DNA from: a virus
DNA length: 64,000 nucleotides
Direction: 5' to 3' (one strand)
Virus record (IMG/VR): IMGVR_UViG_3300043418_000072
Location: 62,001-126,000 of that record
A program made the translations under genes and the position numbers. Below are positions 5,982 to 63,109 of the stretch, one piece after another. Every line of letters starts with the position of its first letter. Positions within the stretch are counted from its first letter, which is position 1. Under the pieces are notes generated by a model. The model saw nothing but the letters and a program-made list of their open reading frames with translations. It was not told the DNA's origin and did no database searches.

Positions 5982-6216
5982 TTTGATTCTCCTCAGTGGG
6001 TTGTGGTTGTGGTGCAGGCTGTAGTGCTCCGGTAGCAGTTAAGAACTTAACTAGCTTATCGTGCAATGCACCAACTTCGGCCATTTCTTCGGCGCGAATT
6101 GCACCGCGTTGTGCAGTGGCTTGAATAACCTTCAGCATTAAAACCATGTCTGCTAGTTGCAGGCTTGGCGCTTCTGGTTGTACTTGTTCGGGGGTTTGGG
6201 TTTGCTCTGTACTCAT
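5974..6216 (-). CDS. Small Gln/Pro-flanked helical protein
   Basis: 80 residues: a Thr/Gln/Glu/Pro-rich N-terminus, a central helix (LADMVLMLKVIQATAQRGAIRAEEMAEVG) in two amphipathic blocks, and a Pro/Gln tail. Not recognised. The ribosome-binding site (AGGAT, 6222-6226) lies in the arm of a long inverted repeat that also contains a late-promoter-like GTAAATA (see 6219-6263). Confidence 0.65.
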   Translation of the reverse strand: MSTEQTQTPEQVQPEAPSLQLADMVLMLKVIQATAQRGAIRAEEMAEVGALHDKLVKFLTATGALQPAPQPQPTEENQNG

Positions 6217-6218
6217 TG

Positions 6219-6263
6219 TGTATCCTATGCGTAATAACTATAGTTATTTACGATAGGATCACA
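6219..6263 (-). promoter_or_regulatory. RBS-sequestering hairpin with internal late-promoter motif
   Basis: A near-perfect inverted repeat of about 20 bp per arm (arms 6219-6240 and 6241-6263, core AATAACTATAGTTATT). On the minus strand the 3' arm includes the AGGAT ribosome-binding site of the gene starting at 6216, while the 5' arm includes GTAAATA (6245-6251), close to the T4 late consensus TATAAATA. Read-through transcripts would fold and hide the site. Transcripts started at the late motif would lack the 5' arm. Confidence 0.6.
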
Positions 6264-13513: not shown

Positions 13514-13542
13514 ATTATAACGGGAATTTCTTATTGTGTCAA
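13514..13542 (-). promoter_or_regulatory. Consensus sigma70 promoter for ParB-like gene
   Basis: Minus strand TTGACA (13537-13542), 17-base spacer, TATAAT (13514-13519): both boxes are perfect consensus, the strongest promoter in the window. It reads into the gene starting at 13459. Confidence 0.85.
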
Positions 13543-53951: not shown

Positions 53952-56208
53952 CTTCGTTTACTGTAGGTTGTGGTGCGATGTCAAACGCTGATTGTGCTTC
54001 GAATGTAAACTCTTTATTAACATAGTCTACTACCATGATGGTGTTAGGACCAATGTTATCAAACAAGATTTTCTTACTCAATGGTACTTTAATCAAGTCG
54101 TTAATCTTACGTTGCACAGGGCGAGCACCCATCTTAGCATCAAAGCCTGTAGCAATGATTTCATCAATAGCCGACTCGCTCAAGCGCACTTTGATCTGAC
54201 GTTCTGCAAGCAACACGTTGATTTCGTTAACAAACTTGCTGACAATCTTGCGCATACTCAATTGGTCCAGCTTGTTGAACTTAACAATGCCGTCTAAGCG
54301 ATTGCGGAACTCTGGCTTAAAGAAGTCCTTAACTGCTTTGTCATCCTCGTCAGTCTTTTGCATACTGCGACCAAAACCAATGTTGTTACGCTCGTTTGCT
54401 GCTGCACCCAAGTTACTTGTAAGGATCACAATACAGTTACGGCAGTCAGCTTTCTTGCCGTTGCTGCTAGTAACCATACCTTCATCCATTAAGCTCAACA
54501 AGATGTTAGATACGTCGGGGTGAGCTTTTTCAATCTCATCCATTAAGATGATACTGTTAGGGCTTTTCTCAACGTCACTAATCAACATTCCGCCGCCCAA
54601 GTTGCCATCGTCGTAACCAACATAGCCAGGAGGCGCACCAATCAGTTTAGCCACGCTGTGCTTCTCTTGGTACTCGCTCATATCGTAACGCAACAGTTTC
54701 ATGCCCAAGTTCTCTGCAAGTAACTTAGCCAGTTCAGTTTTACCTGTACCAGTTGGGCCAAGGAACAAGAAGTTACCAACGGGTTTGTTCAAGCTCTTCA
54801 AGCCAGCTCGTGCCACGTAGATCTTTTCCAATACAGAATCAACCGCTTGGTCTTGTCCATACAATTTAACTTTAATGTTGCTTTCAAGGTTAGTGATTGC
54901 ACCACCATTGTTGGTATTACCAATTTGTTCAACCGGGATCTTAGTAAACTTGCTGATTGCATCCACAATATGGCTACGTGTAACAACAAAGTCCACAGTC
55001 TTAATCTTAAGACGAGCACATGTGCTGTCAATCAAGTCAATTGCTTTGTCAGGCAGCTTCTTGTCAGTTTGGTAACGAACGCTAAGATCAACTGCTGCGT
55101 CAATAGCTTCGTCTGTAATAACGCCACCATGGAATGATTCGAACTTCTCTTTGAGACCTTTAAGAATATCCTTAGCAACTGCTGGAGTTGGCTCATCAAC
55201 AGTAATACGCTGGAAACGGCGCATCAATGCACGATCCTTCTCAAAGCTCTGGCTGTATTCTTCCCAAGTTGTGCTTGCTAACACTTTGATTTGGCCTTTA
55301 GTCAATGCAGGCTTGATCATATTACCAAAGTCGACGCTGCTGTTGCTACCAGAACCTGCCCCACGCATCTGGTGCGCTTCGTCAATAAACAAAATTGCCT
55401 TGCCTTTTGCTTTGAGACCTTTAATAACGTCTTGGAACTTTTCTTCAAACTCGCCGCGGTACTTAGATCCAGCAAGCAAGCTACCAATGTCCAAGTTGTA
55501 GACAGTGTGGTCTTTCAAGTACTCAGGTACAGTGCCGTTGACAATGTTAAGGGCAAGACCTTCTGCAATGGCAGTTTTACCTACACCGGGATCGCCAATC
55601 AACAACACGTTGCTCTTGTTACGCTTAGCCAACACTTCTGCAATTTCGTCCAGCTCGTATTCGCGACCAATTACTGGATCGATGGTGCCTTCGATTGCCT
55701 GCTTGTTTAGATTAGCACAGTACTGCTCAATGAACTCGTCTGCTTTCTCTTTGCCAGCTTCTTTGCGATGTGCTTCTTCTGTATAGTGCTTGTTGTAGTA
55801 GTCGACAAGTTTTGCACGATCCATGCCGTACTTGACCATGAAGTAGTGTGCATAGGTGCTGTTCTCAGAGTGCAAGCTCAGGAACAAGTCAATGACTTGA
55901 ACGTGTGTACGTGCAGAAAATAACACTTGCGTAAATGCTCGATTAAACACACGCTCCAGCGCATGAGTCTTCTTTGGCTCAGTAACATCGGGGTTAACCA
56001 AGTCTGTTAGGCCTGCAATGTATGTTTCGAGGTCTTTGACCAAGCCATCAGTATCGATGCCGTAGCCGTAAATCAATTCATTGAATGGCTTGTATTTAAC
56101 AAGACAGAGCAACATGTGTTCTGCAACCACGTACTCGTGTTTGTGTTCTTTTGCAAGGTTTGTTGCTTCTGCAACGATGTGGTCAATTTCTGGATTAGTT
56201 TGTAGCAT
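53917..56208 (-). CDS. clpA: ClpA-like AAA+ unfoldase
   Basis: 763 residues. N-terminal Clp_N-like helices (1-150). AAA1: Walker A GDPGVGKT at 205-212, Walker B ILFIDEAH at 272-279. AAA2: Walker A GPTGTGKT at 484-491, Walker B SIILMDEIEK near 552-561. C-terminal D2-small domain. A tripeptide IGF at 610-612 (ERNNIGFGRS) corresponds to the ClpP-docking IGL/IGF loop of ClpA/ClpX, absent from ClpB, so it may dock onto host ClpP. Next to a DnaJ. Phage-encoded ClpA-type unfoldase is unusual. Confidence 0.88.
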   Translation of the reverse strand: MLQTNPEIDHIVAEATNLAKEHKHEYVVAEHMLLCLVKYKPFNELIYGYGIDTDGLVKDLETYIAGLTDLVNPDVTEPKKTHALERVFNRAFTQVLFSARTHVQVIDLFLSLHSENSTYAHYFMVKYGMDRAKLVDYYNKHYTEEAHRKEAGKEKADEFIEQYCANLNKQAIEGTIDPVIGREYELDEIAEVLAKRNKSNVLLIGDPGVGKTAIAEGLALNIVNGTVPEYLKDHTVYNLDIGSLLAGSKYRGEFEEKFQDVIKGLKAKGKAILFIDEAHQMRGAGSGSNSSVDFGNMIKPALTKGQIKVLASTTWEEYSQSFEKDRALMRRFQRITVDEPTPAVAKDILKGLKEKFESFHGGVITDEAIDAAVDLSVRYQTDKKLPDKAIDLIDSTCARLKIKTVDFVVTRSHIVDAISKFTKIPVEQIGNTNNGGAITNLESNIKVKLYGQDQAVDSVLEKIYVARAGLKSLNKPVGNFLFLGPTGTGKTELAKLLAENLGMKLLRYDMSEYQEKHSVAKLIGAPPGYVGYDDGNLGGGMLISDVEKSPNSIILMDEIEKAHPDVSNILLSLMDEGMVTSSNGKKADCRNCIVILTSNLGAAANERNNIGFGRSMQKTDEDDKAVKDFFKPEFRNRLDGIVKFNKLDQLSMRKIVSKFVNEINVLLAERQIKVRLSESAIDEIIATGFDAKMGARPVQRKINDLIKVPLSKKILFDNIGPNTIMVVDYVNKEFTFEAQSAFDIAPQPTVNEDGFIVLDQTKS

Positions 56209-57040
56209 CTTGATTTTTAGTTAGTTGACGAATGGCTTCTACCTGAGTTTCTGTTAAATTTGTTGGAACAGTGATATTTGCAATCAAATACAAATTACCC
56301 CTGTTGGATTGATTTAGCGCATAAAGACCCTGTCCTCCAATTTTAAATTTAGTCCCGGGCTGCGTACCTTGTGGTACTGTGAGACTAAAAGTTCGGTTGT
56401 CTAAAGTGGTAAACTCTTTGCTACATCCAATTATAGCATCAAGGCAATCAATGTCAATGGATGTGAACAAATCAATTCCGTTAATTTGGAATCTCGGGTG
56501 CGGCATAACAACAATATTAACATACAAATCGCCACGCGGCAATGTGGTAAAAAGGTTGTCGCCGAGACCCGGATACTTAATGCTGCTGTCTGAGTATACA
56601 CCACGCGGGATTTCGATATCAACTACTTGGTCTGATGTTGACCGGTTTGTATTGATATTCAGTGTGCGCTTTTGAACTTCCAATGTTTCTGCTAAGTTTA
56701 TTTGCACAGTAACTCGAATGTCTCGGTTACGCTGTTGGCGCTGTTGGAATCCGGCACCATTAAATGCAAACCCAAAATTACGCATTAGGTCATTGATATC
56801 CATATTGCCGGTATTAAAGCCGTGCTGTCTATTGCCAAATGGGTTACTGCGTTCAGCATCGTATTGCTCACGCTTTTCGGGAGTTTCAATCGCTGCGTAT
56901 GCTGCTTGGATTTCTTGGAACTTAGCTGTGTTGCCACCTTTGTCGGGATGGTTCTTGCTGGCAAGACTGCGATATGCCTTTTTGATATCGTCTTGTGTTG
57001 CCGACTCGGTTAAGCCAAGCGTTTCATAGTGAGTTGACAT
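56195..57040 (-). CDS. dnaJ: DnaJ-like J-domain co-chaperone
   Basis: 281 residues. J domain at 1-70 with HPD at 31-33 (SKNHPDKGG); a Gly/Phe-poor linker with FNGAGFQQRQQRNR; C-terminal peptide-binding domain (GVYSDSSIKYPGLGDNLF, RGDLYVNIVVMPHPRF). Lacks the Cys-rich zinc finger, so it is CbpA/type-B-like. Stimulates Hsp70 (host DnaK). 14-base overlap with ClpA suggests a joint chaperone role. Confidence 0.9.
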   Translation of the reverse strand: MSTHYETLGLTESATQDDIKKAYRSLASKNHPDKGGNTAKFQEIQAAYAAIETPEKREQYDAERSNPFGNRQHGFNTGNMDINDLMRNFGFAFNGAGFQQRQQRNRDIRVTVQINLAETLEVQKRTLNINTNRSTSDQVVDIEIPRGVYSDSSIKYPGLGDNLFTTLPRGDLYVNIVVMPHPRFQINGIDLFTSIDIDCLDAIIGCSKEFTTLDNRTFSLTVPQGTQPGTKFKIGGQGLYALNQSNRGNLYLIANITVPTNLTETQVEAIRQLTKNQDATN

Positions 57041-57273: not shown

Positions 57274-57290
57274 CCATTTGGTGTCAAGTG

Positions 57291-57497: not shown

Positions 57498-57995
57498 TTA
57501 TAGTAATGGTTGTTCAGCTTCTGGGACAATCTTCTTGCCACTTGCTGTTGTTGCTACCACAGTCGGTGCAGCAAAGGTTGGAGTAAACGCTGCTGGTGCA
57601 GGAGTTGCAGTTGGTGCCACTGCTGGAGTCGCTGTAGATAATGTTGGGCTAGGCAAACCTGCTGCATCGGGTACTGCTGATTGTCCAGCTAACTTCTCTT
57701 GTGTACGACCATATGCACTTACGCCTAATACTGCACACATACTCACATGGAACAAGCCACCGCCTTGTAGTGTAATTGGTACCCATTGACGGAATGCATC
57801 ATTGGCCGCTTGTGTTTCCCAAAACTGCACAACGGTGAACATAATTGGGAAGATGGCAAAGTCGCATAAACAGCATGCCATGTACATAAAGGCCGCACAT
57901 GGACGCCAGTATTTCTGCATCCATTCGCCTTTGCCTACTACTTCTGTTTCGACTACTTCTACTTCTACTTCTGGTTTAGTTGATTTCTTAAACAT
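57498..57995 (-). CDS. Holin of the 3-TM type
   Basis: 165 residues. Region around residue 30 (WMQKYWRPCAAFMYMACCLC, DFAIFPIMFTVVQFW) and VSMCAVLGVSAYGRTQ near 85-100 follow the 3-TM holin pattern (WRP...F). The remainder is Pro/Ala/Thr-rich, low complexity. It would form membrane holes that release the GH19 endolysin. Confidence 0.7.
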   Translation of the reverse strand: MFKKSTKPEVEVEVVETEVVGKGEWMQKYWRPCAAFMYMACCLCDFAIFPIMFTVVQFWETQAANDAFRQWVPITLQGGGLFHVSMCAVLGVSAYGRTQEKLAGQSAVPDAAGLPSPTLSTATPAVAPTATPAPAAFTPTFAAPTVVATTASGKKIVPEAEQPLL

Positions 57996-58005
57996 TGTTT
58001 ACTCC

Positions 58006-58551
58006 TTAGAACCAAAGCCAAATGCCTTGACTTAGTAAAACAATGCCAATAACAGCAACCACTTCACTAAACTTATACATCTTATTGTTAACTGACAAGA
58101 TACTTGCACTCAACAACACAATAGCCAATTGGAACGCCATGCTAGCAAACGTTAACCATGGGCTGTGCTTACTTGCTTGGTCGCGGGCAGCTTCGTATGC
58201 TTGCGCTTTTGCTAGCAATTCTTTTTTACCTTCGCCCTTGACTGGATCGCTTTCGTAACGGTCAATTTTTGCTTGCAATGATTCGGCTTTAGCCTTATCC
58301 CCGCGAGCTAGATAGTCATCACGTTGACCTTCGGCGATAGTTTGCTTGATACTCTTAGACTGGAAGAAAGCGTATGTGTCAGTTGCCTTTAACATATTCT
58401 TCAATGCTGCGCCACTGTGTATGTTTGCAAAGTATGTAGTTACCGCCATGAACAATGCCATGATAACAATCACCAAGCCTGCTTTGTCTTTAATTTGTGC
58501 TTCACGCTCCGAGCGTGATAGGGGTTTTGCTTCCTTGATTTCTTCTGCCAT
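58006..58551 (-). CDS. DUF4337-like membrane protein
   Basis: 181 residues. A charged N-terminus, TM (GLVIVIMALFMAVTTYFAN), a helical region with EGQRDDYLARGDKAKAESLQ, then two or three TM (WLTFASMAFQLAIVLLSASI, VVAVIGIVLLSQGIWLW). Architecture and the SPWLTFASMAFQ segment match DUF4337. Function unknown; located in the lysis region with AAGGAGA before its ATG. Confidence 0.7.
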   Translation of the reverse strand: MAEEIKEAKPLSRSEREAQIKDKAGLVIVIMALFMAVTTYFANIHSGAALKNMLKATDTYAFFQSKSIKQTIAEGQRDDYLARGDKAKAESLQAKIDRYESDPVKGEGKKELLAKAQAYEAARDQASKHSPWLTFASMAFQLAIVLLSASILSVNNKMYKFSEVVAVIGIVLLSQGIWLWF

Positions 58552-58571: not shown

Positions 58572-58628
58572 TTAGTTCTTTGGATGCTTGTGTCCACAAT
58601 GTGGACATTCTTCTTTACGGTCGCTCAT
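58572..58628 (-). CDS. 18-residue Cys/His micropeptide ORF
   Basis: MSDRKEECPHCGHKHPKN from the ATG at 58628, which overlaps the lipoprotein stop as ATGA, exactly like the other coupled genes here. The CPHCGHKH spacing would suit a zinc knuckle. The stop at 58572 precedes the next gene's ribosome-binding site. Short, so it may be spurious. Confidence 0.45.
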   Translation of the reverse strand: MSDRKEECPHCGHKHPKN

Positions 58629-58894
58629 TTAGATACTCCCTCAAAAATTTGTTTTTGTACTCGATACCATTCCTGCCAGGTATCAACCTTTACTGCACAC
58701 TCGTAGTAGGTGCTGTAATTCTGCGTCACCGTCGCAGTCAACTCACTCAACTTCACCCCGTTCTCTACTGTCGTCAGCTGTGGACATGACTCCATAGCGG
58801 CTTTGCCCGGTTCGTCGGGGAACTTAGCCACAACCGGTGCAGTTGTGCTACATCCTGATAATAATAGTGCAAACGCGATTAACGTATATTTCAT
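58625..58894 (-). CDS. Outer-spanin-like lipoprotein
   Basis: 89 residues from the ATG at 58894 (MKYTLIAFALLLSGCSTTAP), which overlaps the preceding stop as TAATG. The signal peptide ends in the lipobox LSGC, so it is an outer- or inner-membrane lipoprotein. Pairs naturally with the membrane/coiled-coil protein two genes upstream as an Rz/Rz1-type spanin, though the lipoprotein is longer and more structured than most Rz1. Confidence 0.7.
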   Translation of the reverse strand: MKYTLIAFALLLSGCSTTAPVVAKFPDEPGKAAMESCPQLTTVENGVKLSELTATVTQNYSTYYECAVKVDTWQEWYRVQKQIFEGVSK

Positions 58895-59274
58895 TAGCAA
58901 TTCCATTTACGCAAAGCCAGTGCCTTGCGAGTTGGCTTACCGTTTTCGTCCTTCATTGGGCCTTCCATGCCACTCATTCGAGCACAGAAACTCTTACGGC
59001 GCTTGGCATCTTTGCTGTCCGGCTTTAGTTCACTAGGCTTTTTAGTGACTGCGGTTTGTAGTTTGCTGCCTGGATGCTCTCTACGATAGCTGTCAACACC
59101 CTTTTGATTTAGGCCGCCATTTTTATTCTTACCTGACTTCTTTTGCCAAGCTGCGGTTTCGTCAACGGCACTTTCTTCTGCCTTTTCACAACTACCCGGA
59201 GAATACTCCTTTGTACCAGGAACACGCTTATAACCGTCCCAACATGCTTCTGTAATAATTTCGTTAATTTTCAT
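58894..59274 (-). CDS. DUF6321-like protein with capsid-targeting-like start
   Basis: 126 residues. Begins MKINEIITEACWDGY, sharing MxINEIITEA with the gene at 726; the codons differ, so the peptide is conserved. The rest (YKRVPGTKEYSPGSCEKAEE, GGLNQKGVDSYRREHPGSKL, KRRKSFCARMSGMEGPMKDE, ALALRKWNC) matches DUF6321-type phage proteins. Inferred head-associated after leader removal. Sits within the lysis gene order. Confidence 0.7.
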   Translation of the reverse strand: MKINEIITEACWDGYKRVPGTKEYSPGSCEKAEESAVDETAAWQKKSGKNKNGGLNQKGVDSYRREHPGSKLQTAVTKKPSELKPDSKDAKRRKSFCARMSGMEGPMKDENGKPTRKALALRKWNC

Positions 59275-59732
59275 TTAATGGCCTCGTTCTTTGCTGCGGC
59301 GTTGTGTGCTTTAACTACCGGCTCGGGGATCTTGCAGGTAGCATCATATTTGGTAACTTCACGAGTGATGTATTGTTTAACCACTACAGCCTTCTCACGA
59401 ATTACTCGAACTTTTTCCTTACTCTTCTTTGCTAGCTTATCATTGGCAGTTTTAGCTTCAGCTTCTGCTGCTGCTACTTTAACTTCCATTTCAGCAACCC
59501 GGGCACGCCATTGCGTTTCCGCTGCATACCCACCTTCGAAGTAAACACCTGCAGCCAAGGTAATTGCACTAACAAGCTGTGCTATATTAACGTAACTAGA
59601 CAACATTGGCAGAGACATAAGAATCCTGTTAACAACAAAGAAACTTAGGAATGTACCGATGATACCCGCAATTAAGATAGCGTGAACTACAAATTGCAGG
59701 AAGCTGTCGGGTAGGAAATGTAGCAACCACAT
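59271..59732 (-). CDS. Inner spanin / holin-like membrane protein
   Basis: 153 residues. Two membrane helices (FVVHAILIAGIIGTFLSFFV, NIAQLVSAITLAAGVYF) then a coiled coil (MEVKVAAAEAEAKTANDKLA) and a periplasmic C-terminus with EVTKYDATCKIPEPV. Placement between endolysin and lipoprotein fits an i-spanin (Rz-like), but two spans instead of one would make it a holin-spanin hybrid. Overlaps the DUF6321 gene by ATGA. Confidence 0.6.
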   Translation of the reverse strand: MWLLHFLPDSFLQFVVHAILIAGIIGTFLSFFVVNRILMSLPMLSSYVNIAQLVSAITLAAGVYFEGGYAAETQWRARVAEMEVKVAAAEAEAKTANDKLAKKSKEKVRVIREKAVVVKQYITREVTKYDATCKIPEPVVKAHNAAAKNEAIK

Positions 59733-59733
59733 A

Positions 59734-60360
59734 TCAAGCGCCTAGTACGTGCAATGCGTGTTGGTAATGCTTAATGCGATCCTCAAGTCCAATGGTACCG
59801 CCATTAATGCGTTTAGTCAACATTAGAATGTCGCCTTTATCAGCAAATTGGTTCAAGTTGTTAGATTCCCAGAACCAAGCTGCACTTTGTACACAACCCT
59901 CAAATGTAGTTAAATGCTCGCTAGCTTCTTCTACATCAATTTCAAGACTTTGTGCATAGCGGGTGTAATTGTCTTTACCAGTTAGCTGGATTAAGCCACG
60001 CCCGCAATAGCGATATCCGTCACCCGATTCTTCTGGGCCGTTGCCCATACGGTTGGCGTAAATTCTGTTAGCAATCGCAGCTTGCTTATCTGGCATAGCG
60101 CAATAGCGAGTAGCAGTTTCGAGGTCAAAGTACTTCTTAAACAATGTCACTAGGGTAGCAGGACGATAGTTTAAGTTTTCTTTAATAGCAGTAAATCCGC
60201 CGCTTTCGTGGGCGCATTGTGCAAGGAACGCTGCAAGGCGTTGGGGTGTGTCAATATCGTAGTCCGGAAGGATTTCGCACAAGGCTTCGTGCCAATGCTC
60301 TACGTGTTTGTTACCGGGGATGATTTGTTTTAATTGGTCGAGCGACAGGTTTAAACTCAT
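59734..60360 (-). CDS. GH19 (chitinase-type) endolysin
   Basis: 208 residues. GH19 fold: FLAQCAHESGGFTAIKENLN near 45-64 (catalytic Glu52 and Glu61), YRYCGRGLIQLTGKDNYTRY near 116-135 and FWESNNLNQFAD near 160-175. Cleaves peptidoglycan glycan. Lacks a signal peptide, so it depends on the holin. Its ribosome-binding site is inside a hairpin with an internal late-promoter motif (60367-60402), as for T4 lysozyme gene e. Confidence 0.92.
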   Translation of the reverse strand: MSLNLSLDQLKQIIPGNKHVEHWHEALCEILPDYDIDTPQRLAAFLAQCAHESGGFTAIKENLNYRPATLVTLFKKYFDLETATRYCAMPDKQAAIANRIYANRMGNGPEESGDGYRYCGRGLIQLTGKDNYTRYAQSLEIDVEEASEHLTTFEGCVQSAAWFWESNNLNQFADKGDILMLTKRINGGTIGLEDRIKHYQHALHVLGA

Positions 60361-60366
60361 TGAAAA

Positions 60367-60402
60367 GCTCCTAAATAGCTACAGTATTTAGCTAGTAGGA
60401 GC
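60367..60402 (-). promoter_or_regulatory. Hairpin hiding the endolysin RBS, with late-promoter motif in its loop
   Basis: Arms GCTCCTA (60367-60373) and TAGGAGC (60396-60402), extended by AGCT/AGCT. On the minus strand the 3' arm is the TAGGAGC ribosome-binding site for the endolysin. The loop holds CTAAATACT (60383-60391), matching the T4 late consensus. Late transcripts would start downstream of the 5' arm and leave the site open; earlier read-through transcripts would fold and be silent. Confidence 0.65.
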
Positions 60403-60411
60403 CAAAATGGA

Positions 60412-60972
60412 TTAGCGGATTCCTGCTGCGATTCTTAGAGATTCAGTGAAATCGTTCTTAGGAGCTTTAGTAGTTACTTCTACTCCTGCTGCTGCTTTCA
60501 TTTTATCAATGTCTTCTTTGCCGTATCGCTCATTGTATGATTTAGCAGATAACGGAACTAGGTCAGCGATGCTATTAACAGTTGCTTCGTGATCGGTTTC
60601 GTCTGAGCGGTAACGTACACGCCAATCTTCGATGCTCTGCTCTGTCAAGTTCATCATGTCTTGTAACAGTTTGTGTACATTCTTTGGGAGATCGTAATCG
60701 CGTTCTAATTCGACAAACACCAGGTATGCGCCGTCATCTAATTCGCCGCTACTAACATCAGCATCGATTACCCACTCGTACCCTTTTTCGCAAAAACTAA
60801 CTAGGTCTTCTGCTGGTTCTTTTGTGGCAAGTTTAAAACTTAGTACTGCAACATCTTCGTCGCGCCCTAGCTTGCTCTTGTATTCATCAATATGCAACTC
60901 AGGGTGGATAAGGCGCTTTAAGTCGCCGTACTCTAGCCCTTCTTTAAGCTGCTGGTGCTGGTGCTGGTTCAT
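60412..60972 (-). CDS. Conserved phage hypothetical upstream of endolysin
   Basis: 186 residues. LEYGDLKRLIHPELHIDEYK, VLSFKLATKEPAEDLVSFCE, YEWVIDADVSSGELDDGAYL, and IEDWRVRYRSDETDHEATVN. Alpha/beta; its style matches conserved proteins of T4-like marine phages. May be virion-associated. 29-base overlap with the preceding gene. Confidence 0.65.
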   Translation of the reverse strand: MNQHQHQQLKEGLEYGDLKRLIHPELHIDEYKSKLGRDEDVAVLSFKLATKEPAEDLVSFCEKGYEWVIDADVSSGELDDGAYLVFVELERDYDLPKNVHKLLQDMMNLTEQSIEDWRVRYRSDETDHEATVNSIADLVPLSAKSYNERYGKEDIDKMKAAAGVEVTTKAPKNDFTESLRIAAGIR

Positions 60973-61510
60973 TACCTGGTCCTTGTTGTGGATTTACTTG
61001 TTCTGCGTTGCCGGTCTTGTACATCTTATCGTCTTGACCAGTTTCATATGCTTGCTCAATGTCTTCCATATCGATACTACCAGACTCAAGTTCCAAGCTA
61101 CCTTGGTGGATTTCTTGCATAAGCGTCTTAGGCATTACAATCTTAACTAACCAAACCGGGCTCTCGCCTTTCTTAGGCACCTTCGTTCCGGGCTTAAAGT
61201 CGTTGGGGTTTTTAACTTTAATCGGATATTCTAGAGTGTCTCGCTTGTAATAGACTTCGCAGTTATATTCTACTAGGCGCTCTGCTGCACGTGGGTCGGG
61301 CATAAATTTGTGCGGCCACATAAACGTGCAAGTAACAAAGTACTTCTCGTAGATTGGGCCTTCTACTAACTCCCCGTTCTTCCAGTTTTTAAACGCATAC
61401 AAGTCTAACTCGTCAATTACACGTTCAAAGTCCATAAGGGTAGCTAATGCACTGTCTGTCATAGTCAGTGTTTTTGTATTGTTAATTACATCTTTAATGC
61501 TCTGAGCCAT
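60944..61510 (-). CDS. Conserved phage structural-like protein
   Basis: 188 residues. MTDSALATLMDFERVIDELD, YFVTCTFMWPHKFMPDPRAA, VYYKRDTLEYPIKVKNPNDF, then a long acidic/Pro-rich tail. Beta-rich centre; structural (baseplate or tail) role is possible but unproven. A late-type motif at 61532-61538 precedes it. Confidence 0.62.
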   Translation of the reverse strand: MAQSIKDVINNTKTLTMTDSALATLMDFERVIDELDLYAFKNWKNGELVEGPIYEKYFVTCTFMWPHKFMPDPRAAERLVEYNCEVYYKRDTLEYPIKVKNPNDFKPGTKVPKKGESPVWLVKIVMPKTLMQEIHQGSLELESGSIDMEDIEQAYETGQDDKMYKTGNAEQVNPQQGPGNEPAPAPAA

Positions 61511-61514
61511 TGTT

Positions 61515-62150
61515 TTATTCCGCTTTTGTATTATTTAGCCCGCTTGCTGTTCTAACTACAAGGTCTAATGGCTGATCCCCTACTGCGGAAAAATACTTAG
61601 CATTGGGATCTTGTGACAATATTTCATCTAGCTTAACTGGATCGACATGCACCGGAAACTCTAGCTGTTTAGCAATACTCTTAATATAATTTGCTTTATA
61701 CAAATACAATAACTCAGTGCTTAGGTATACTGGATTGTGTCCCATTAAATATGGAATAGCTTTTTCAAAGTGCGGTAAAGTAATCTGTCCGCGCAATCTA
61801 GTCTGCTGATGCTCTAAGATGTTTTTGTCTCTACCAATTATTGCAAATTTTAAGTTATACCCTATGTCTTTTGCTGCGTTAACAAAACCTTTATAATCCG
61901 GGATTGATACGCTTCCTTTATACATATAGGGGCAGCTTATGCTAGTAAACGCAAACTTATCAAACTGTATGTCTTTAAGTGAGAGAGGCCGACGCCAAGC
62001 TTCGGCAAATGGTTCTTGATCGTGTGGCGCCCAGTAATTATTTGTTAGATAGTCCCACCCAAACACATTTGCATTGGCTGCAAATATTTTTGAAAATAAA
62101 TGATTCCCGGACCCCTGGGGGCCGGTTATCACCAATAAGGTTTTTGACAT
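61515..62150 (-). CDS. P-loop kinase or sulfotransferase-like protein
   Basis: 211 residues. LLVITGPQGSGNHLFSKIFA at the N-terminus is a Walker-A-like loop (GPQGSGNHL) with a variant ending. Remaining: FAFTSISCPYMYKGSVSIPD, FAIIGRDKNILEHQQTRLRG, YLSTELLYLYKANYIKS. The IGRDxxILEHQQTR part resembles the 3' motif of sulfotransferases. Could be either; overlaps TctC (TGATG). Confidence 0.6.
   Translation of the reverse strand: MSKTLLVITGPQGSGNHLFSKIFAANANVFGWDYLTNNYWAPHDQEPFAEAWRRPLSLKDIQFDKFAFTSISCPYMYKGSVSIPDYKGFVNAAKDIGYNLKFAIIGRDKNILEHQQTRLRGQITLPHFEKAIPYLMGHNPVYLSTELLYLYKANYIKSIAKQLEFPVHVDPVKLDEILSQDPNAKYFSAVGDQPLDLVVRTASGLNNTKAE
61532..61538 (-). promoter_or_regulatory. Late-promoter-like motif CTAAATA
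   Basis: Minus strand CTAAATAATAC, 22 bases before the ATG at 61510. Confidence 0.5.
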
Positions 62151-63109
62151 CAGTCTAGTAAGTTAATTTGTTGACTTAACGGAATGAACACGCTGCGCAA
62201 CTGCTCAATGTGTCGATTAAACCCCGAAGGAGTAAGTTCACGCTCGTCAATGAATATTAGATTGGTATCGTAATACTGCTTGATCTCTGCGCTACGCAAT
62301 GCAGGGATGAAATTTTTAGCATACCAGTCCACAATCTCTTTAGGGGTGTTTGGCGGCAATGCAAGTGCCCATGCTGCAAATACGTTAATGTAGCTGCCGC
62401 CCACTCGAATAGGTTCTGCTGCGGGCAAATTAGCAAGGCGCTTTTCACCAGTGATGCCAATTACTTTAACGTGCCCGCTTTGTACTAGTGGCAGCGCAAT
62501 AGCAATGGGCATGATTCCAAACTCAATTCCTGCATCGCTAGCCACGGCTGTAACTGCCTGCAACGGGCCAGGGAACTGTGTAAACTTAACTTGAGTTTTG
62601 TTTCCACCAGCTTTCATCATAAAGAACTCGTATGCCATTCTGTGAGCTCCTCCACCAATTGCAAAAGTAATTGGCTTGTCTGTTTCTTTAACTAACTTAG
62701 CAAGTTCTGCAGGAGTAGTAATCTTGCTCTTGGGATTGGCAACGATCGCCAACGGACTCTTGCCCATACCAAATGCAGTTGTAAAACTGTTGTATTGGAA
62801 CTGCTTAATGTCCTTTTGCCAAATGTCATTTGTTACGTAGGTACTCATGTAACTGGGGATAGCAATAGTGTGGCCATCAGGTTTGGCGTTATATAGCAAG
62901 TTCATTGATACTACGCTGTCTGCGCCGGGCTTGAGGTCAATTACAAACACAGCAGGATTGGTTTTGTTAACCACTGCACTAATGGCGCGAAATCCAACTT
63001 CGTTGCCTGAGCCGGGTTGGTTACCAATTAAGACTGTAATGGGTTTAGTGGGTTCCCATGCAAACGCTAGCACAGGGATTAGTAGTAAGGTGATTAAAAA
63101 CTTTTTCAT
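62150..63109 (-). CDS. TctC/Bug-type periplasmic solute-binding protein
   Basis: 319 residues with a signal peptide (MKKFLITLLLIPVLAFA). KPITVLIGNQPGSGNEVGFR, LLYNAKPDGHTIAIPSYMST, FGMGKSPLAIVANPKSK, TFAIGGGAHRMAYEFFMMKA and VKVIGITGEKRLANLPA follow the TTT substrate-binding fold that captures carboxylates in Burkholderiales. An auxiliary gene likely acquired from a host; ATGA-overlap with the preceding phage gene shows it is integrated into the operon. Binding target unknown. Confidence 0.88.
   Translation of the reverse strand: MKKFLITLLLIPVLAFAWEPTKPITVLIGNQPGSGNEVGFRAISAVVNKTNPAVFVIDLKPGADSVVSMNLLYNAKPDGHTIAIPSYMSTYVTNDIWQKDIKQFQYNSFTTAFGMGKSPLAIVANPKSKITTPAELAKLVKETDKPITFAIGGGAHRMAYEFFMMKAGGNKTQVKFTQFPGPLQAVTAVASDAGIEFGIMPIAIALPLVQSGHVKVIGITGEKRLANLPAAEPIRVGGSYINVFAAWALALPPNTPKEIVDWYAKNFIPALRSAEIKQYYDTNLIFIDERELTPSGFNRHIEQLRSVFIPLSQQINLLD

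Follow-up and report, generated by a model that had tools for sequence, protein, structure and literature searches.

A candidate late promoter within a ribosome-binding-site hairpin before the GH19 endolysin gene of a jumbo phage

The lysozyme gene e of phage T4 has a leader that folds into a hairpin over the ribosome-binding site (RBS), and a late promoter lies in the part that encodes the 5′ arm and the loop (McPheeters et al. 1986, reviewed in PMC3014915). Gene e is located on early read-through RNA (PMC3014915). T4 soc, gene 49, I-TevI/II/III, and segB, as well as mobE of Aeh1, also have the Shine-Dalgarno sequence (SD) or the AUG sequestered in a long RNA and freed by a late start (PMC3014915, PMC2988022). 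These regulated genes differ from the one described here, and none is a lysis gene. The gene e switch was described in close T-even phages, and the review notes none in the more distant gene e-bearing phages Aeh1, 44RR, 25, and 31 (PMC3014915). The mechanism class is already known from T4 e, soc, 49, and I-TevI (PMC3014915, PMC2988022). New aspects are the enzyme family and the lineage in which it is seen here, its support by covariation, and the evidence that it arose more than once. An earlier report of such control for GH19 endolysins or jumbo phages was not found in open-access full texts.

The hairpin and its gene neighborhood

The window is a stretch of 64,000 nucleotides from a phage genome of 354 kb. 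On its minus strand, just 5′ of a GH19 endolysin gene, there is a two-part RBS hairpin of approximately 36–38 nt (60366–60403) that buries the SD. Read on the minus strand it consists of GGCTCCTA, C, TAGCTA, AATACTG, TAGCTA, TT, and TAGGAGCT, and it is followed by the TTTCAATG of the endolysin gene (start at 60360). The 5′ arm occupies 60403–60396, the inner arms 60394–60389 and 60381–60376, and the 3′ arm 60373–60366. A preliminary description of this DNA had proposed that the arms GCTCCTA and TAGGAGC pair the endolysin RBS. Both arms were located (plus-strand positions 60367–60373 and 60396–60402), and RNAfold places the SD, AGGAG (60368–60372), wholly within the paired 3′ arm. The SD core GGAG (60371–60368) is 7 nt from the ATG. 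The predicted fold has 8 outer and 6 inner base pairs and a free energy of -19.1 kcal/mol (z -2.64), and 4 of 200 dinucleotide shuffles were equally stable. The exact 7+7 inverted repeat occurs only once in the genome. The gap between the upstream virion gene (60972–60412) and the endolysin gene (60360–59734) is 51 nt, and 38 of these belong to the hairpin.

The endolysin (59734–60360, minus strand; 208 aa) is encoded by the first gene of a lysis cassette and was identified through PF00182 (E 1.9e-6) and the phrog_181 endolysin family (E 1.4e-74). A Pfam search of the product gave no match to the T4-lysozyme family, so homology to gene e itself was not found. The other cassette genes are on the same strand. 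The second encodes an i-spanin-like protein (59271–59732; phrog_312 Rz-like spanin, E 1.4e-4) and has no late motif of its own. An o-spanin-like, Rz1-type protein (58625–58906) matches the phrog_456 Rz-like spanins (E 3.9e-6) and, below the cut-off, Pfam LysC (E 0.001). A holin-like membrane protein (57498–57995) matches GTA_holin_3TM in Pfam just below the cut-off (E 2.5e-4). The cassette also contains a gene for a DUF4337 membrane protein (58006–58551, minus strand; E 1e-28).

Upstream of the hairpin on the minus strand are two virion genes. The nearer one (60412–60972; phrog_13138 virion structural, E 1.3e-21) encodes a head protein and is the source of a putative read-through RNA. The second (60944–61510; phrog_12928, E 6.7e-35) is preceded at 28 nt by a late-type motif, CTAAATA (61532–61538, minus strand). 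This putative promoter is 1.1 kb from the hairpin and is the likely start of a late read-through RNA. A gene for a TctC-type tricarboxylate-binding receptor (62150–63109, minus strand; PF03401, E 3e-18), probably host-derived, is also found near the virion genes.

Late promoter motif and accessibility of the SD

A late-type promoter element, CTAAATA, is present within the hairpin (60385–60391, minus strand). Hexamers from -48 to -14 of SD-ATG starts were counted in 164 kb of the genome (the window and five 20-kb stretches), with no motif set beforehand. TAAATA was the top enriched hexamer, with 20 seen and 2.2 expected (p 4e-13). The genome thus has a TAAATA core enriched just 5′ of its starts, as in a T4-type late promoter set. 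It also encodes a gp55-type late sigma factor of 289 aa (phrog_12791, E 5e-75; T4 gp55 family phrog_234, E 1.5e-23). These results support CTAAATA in the hairpin as a probable late promoter. The TAAATA core and the gp55-family sigma are shared with T4, whose late promoters read TATAAATA; in this phage, unlike T4, the base preceding TAAATA is mostly A or C. A direct search with the T4 gp45 protein gave no match and is uninformative on the presence of gp45. The second enriched class upstream of starts is TATAAT/TATAATA, which fits the expectation for host-sigma promoters. Perfect sigma70 promoters (TTGACA-17-TATAAT class) are found in the window at 57287–57259 and at 13519, both on the minus strand, and the first precedes a DnaJ-like gene (56195–57040).

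The late-type CTAAATACT (60391–60383) had been described as lying in the loop. The outer stem encloses it, but only part of it falls in the apical loop; its first bases belong to the inner stem. From T4 late-promoter spacing, RNA would start near 60379, approximately 12 nt downstream of the motif's first base. The assumed start is the sixth base beyond TAAATA, as in T4 late promoters. An RNA with this start would lack the whole 5′ arm.

Accessibility of the SD was expressed as the predicted cost of opening four of its bases, with 100 shuffles of the upstream half as the control. The cost is 10.0 kcal/mol in the read-through RNA and 3.5 kcal/mol in the predicted late RNA. By this prediction the long RNA locks the SD into a helix and holds it tighter than in 100 of 100 shuffles (p 0.01). 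When the assumed 5′ end was moved, any start from approximately 8 nt before the motif onwards gave a cost of about 5 kcal/mol or less. The predicted release of the SD is therefore independent of the exact RNA start.

T4 gene e was fetched as a control and gave 12.4 vs. 2.9 kcal/mol by the same method. The gene e-like logic that had been suggested for this locus, with an unrelated sequence and a GH19 enzyme, is supported: the enzyme matches PF00182, and the predicted opening costs are parallel. The two leaders share an RBS hairpin, a probable internal late promoter, a gp55-type sigma, a lysis gene, and their folding behavior. In contrast to T4, the enzyme here is GH19 and not T4 lysozyme, the hairpin sequence is unrelated, the upstream genes are virion and not early genes, and the jumbo-phage lineage is far from T4.

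Conservation and origin among relatives

Searches of viral contigs with the endolysin and with the upstream head protein gave approximately 80 loci that belong to a single jumbo-phage lineage. Within the window's own endolysin clade, a stem surrounds the promoter motif in the window itself and in L275, L250, L284, L294, L272, L322, and L004. Two of these are weak, as SD burial reaches only p 0.08 in L004 and only 0.05 in L284, which has a G x G mismatch. In L004 the design persists even though an extra gene separates the endolysin gene from the head gene. L316 is the sole clade member without hairpin and promoter. The preliminary description had called for a comparison of the arms for compensatory changes, and this bore it out: the arms are kept and the outer stem covaries. 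The outer-stem pair beside the CTCC/GGAG core is UA in three, AU in two, and GC in two of seven sequences. In the alignment of these seven leaders, where the inner helix is less surely aligned, the covariation score was 0.209 compared to 0.106 in shuffles. Only 1 of 500 shuffles scored as high, and slid controls were lower.

The same comparison bears on whether the hairpin is an intrinsic terminator that closes the virion operon and overlaps the RBS incidentally. The stem is G+C-rich and followed by TTTTC, and TTTT is invariant in the near clade. However, there are four T only, and a terminator scan gave no call. Hairpin-bearing relatives can lack the T run (L252 has AGTTATG and L004 has AACAGC), and the hairpin-less L269 and L323 retain TTTTCAATG. 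The T run occurs without the hairpin in some relatives and the hairpin without the T run in others, which points to the T run as part of the SD spacer. A T-rich tract is therefore not conserved with the stem, and a terminator is quite improbable. In Microcystis phage Mel-JY01 (L331:540–600), a near-perfect hairpin (-26.8 kcal/mol) without a late motif precedes a GH19 gene and is perhaps a terminator.

More distant relatives have other stems. L252 and L268, with endolysins approximately 50% identical, have perfect stems of different sequence around the promoter motif. L318 follows a second layout and uses the downstream flank of the promoter itself as the 5′ arm. In lineages where a spanin gene comes first, the late motif and an inverted repeat precede the spanin gene and not the endolysin gene. 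In the cultured Vibrio phages pv27 and SRILMA, which have GH19 endolysins, the layout is shared but the stem is a different one: TATAAATACTC pairs with GAGTATTT over the SD, and the predicted opening costs are 8.6 vs. 2.1 and 11.0 vs. 2.2 kcal/mol, respectively. In PA5oct and Phosso, an endolysin annotated beside the head gene was not found.

The device also occurs before other late genes. A head-tail adaptor gene of this phage (phrog_211; L105:15461–16358, minus strand; G000:326358) has the same layout, with AAGTCCTGT and ACAGGACTT around ATAAATACT, and its predicted SD opening costs are 13.8 vs. 1.6 kcal/mol. Adaptor homologues that are 67% identical (L233, L246, and L247) have an unrelated stem and another layout with the same logic.

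Further hairpins of this kind were observed. An 80-aa gene in the window (6216–6251, minus strand) has its SD covered by a strong hairpin, ATCCTAT..ATAGGAT, whose stem contains GTAAATA, a doubtful promoter. A psbD-like gene on a phage contig (L108:1325–1347) has CTAAATACTATA within an RBS hairpin (-17.6 kcal/mol); such control of a photosynthesis gene would deserve attention. The GRISGPLL... protein family is preceded by TAAATACTGTAT..ATACAGTATG hairpins in L226, L227, L230, L234, L238–L243, and L245; the search itself imposed this pattern.

Among endolysin late starts, 10 of 26–27 have SD burial at p<=0.05, compared with 4 of 56 late starts of other genes (Fisher p 0.001). Most positives belong to one clade, which includes eight of the hairpin-bearing endolysins. 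Taken as a single case, this clade leaves a weak excess over other late genes, so the independent excess is modest. There are 17 related endolysins with the motif and no significant SD burial, and 38 of the 66 endolysins in the tree have no late motif. The hairpin device is real but optional and dispensable, because many related endolysins have the promoter motif without SD burial, or neither. The many relatives with a promoter and no hairpin would also suit a stem that is real and has another purpose, such as a site for an RNA-binding protein or RNase III or a role in mRNA stability, with release by the internal promoter as a by-product. Against this, the unrelated stems share just the layout of 5′ arm, promoter, and SD, whereas conservation of sequence would be expected of a protein site. 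We consider another purpose highly improbable.

The preliminary description had left convergence and deep conservation side by side. Mapped on the endolysin tree of 66 jumbo-phage relatives, presence of the hairpin requires 5 changes. One origin for all jumbo-phage endolysin hairpins (11 rows as one clade) was rejected by an AU test (p 5e-10) that left out the Vibrio phages and used a hairpin group named after the data were seen. Common ancestry with the T4 e leader was also rejected, as the gene families differ and the structures are patchy. The choice thus leans toward convergence, in view of the AU test, the differing stems, and the patchiness, and away from deep conservation. Repeated evolution on a shared sigma and promoter system is favored over descent of one leader, because hairpins vary in sequence and layout from relative to relative and are missing from many, a single clade was rejected, and distant T4-like phages are without the structure (PMC3014915).

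Probable insulation of the endolysin gene from upstream transcription

The hairpin, the SD burial, the motif enrichment, the sigma homologue, and the conservation with covariation were computed. We consider it probable that this locus combines a late promoter with a translational insulator that acts in cis. RNA entering from upstream would fold into the hairpin and bury the endolysin SD, so that no endolysin would be made from it. The gp55-type late RNA polymerase would use CTAAATA inside the hairpin and start RNA near 60379. With the whole 5′ arm missing, the SD of this RNA would be free and translated. Endolysin output would then be tied to its own promoter and shielded from read-through of the neighboring virion genes. 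Where the RNA starts, whether read-through RNA exists, how translation is affected, and the timing are suppositions of this scheme. The predicted late RNA retains some SD pairing (3.5 kcal/mol), which counts against an insulator.

It had been suggested that only late transcripts would have a free site. A rival to the insulator is a strict early/late switch of the T4 kind that silences early read-through RNA. Such a switch has the same anatomy as the insulator and differs only in the RNA that is silenced. This anatomy equals that of T4 e, and strong sigma70-like promoters are present on the same strand approximately 11 kb upstream, the nearest of this host type. However, plus-strand genes intervene between them and the endolysin gene, and the adjoining upstream genes encode virion proteins and have a late motif of their own. 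Late read-through RNA from the motif at 61538 would therefore also carry the closed hairpin. The suggestion holds for RNA from the internal promoter (motif at 60391, start near 60379), which would be free, and is too broad for late virion read-through, which would be closed. Because the two genes upstream code for virion proteins and look late themselves, given a separate CTAAATA, and the host-type promoters are 11 kb off beyond plus-strand genes, insulation of lysis from read-through is more likely than a pure early/late switch, which appears rather unlikely.

It is possible, and we propose it tentatively as nearly an even chance, that gp55 phages have evolved a late promoter in an RBS hairpin repeatedly, as a recurrent device. 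This device would uncouple certain genes, namely the first lysis gene (for endolysin or for spanin) and some virion genes, from read-through of neighboring late operons, and would serve mainly for operon insulation and not as an early/late timer. Stems that covary, found before the gene of an unrelated lysis enzyme in a jumbo-phage lineage, together with different stems on homologous genes, suggest that selection keeps rebuilding the device.
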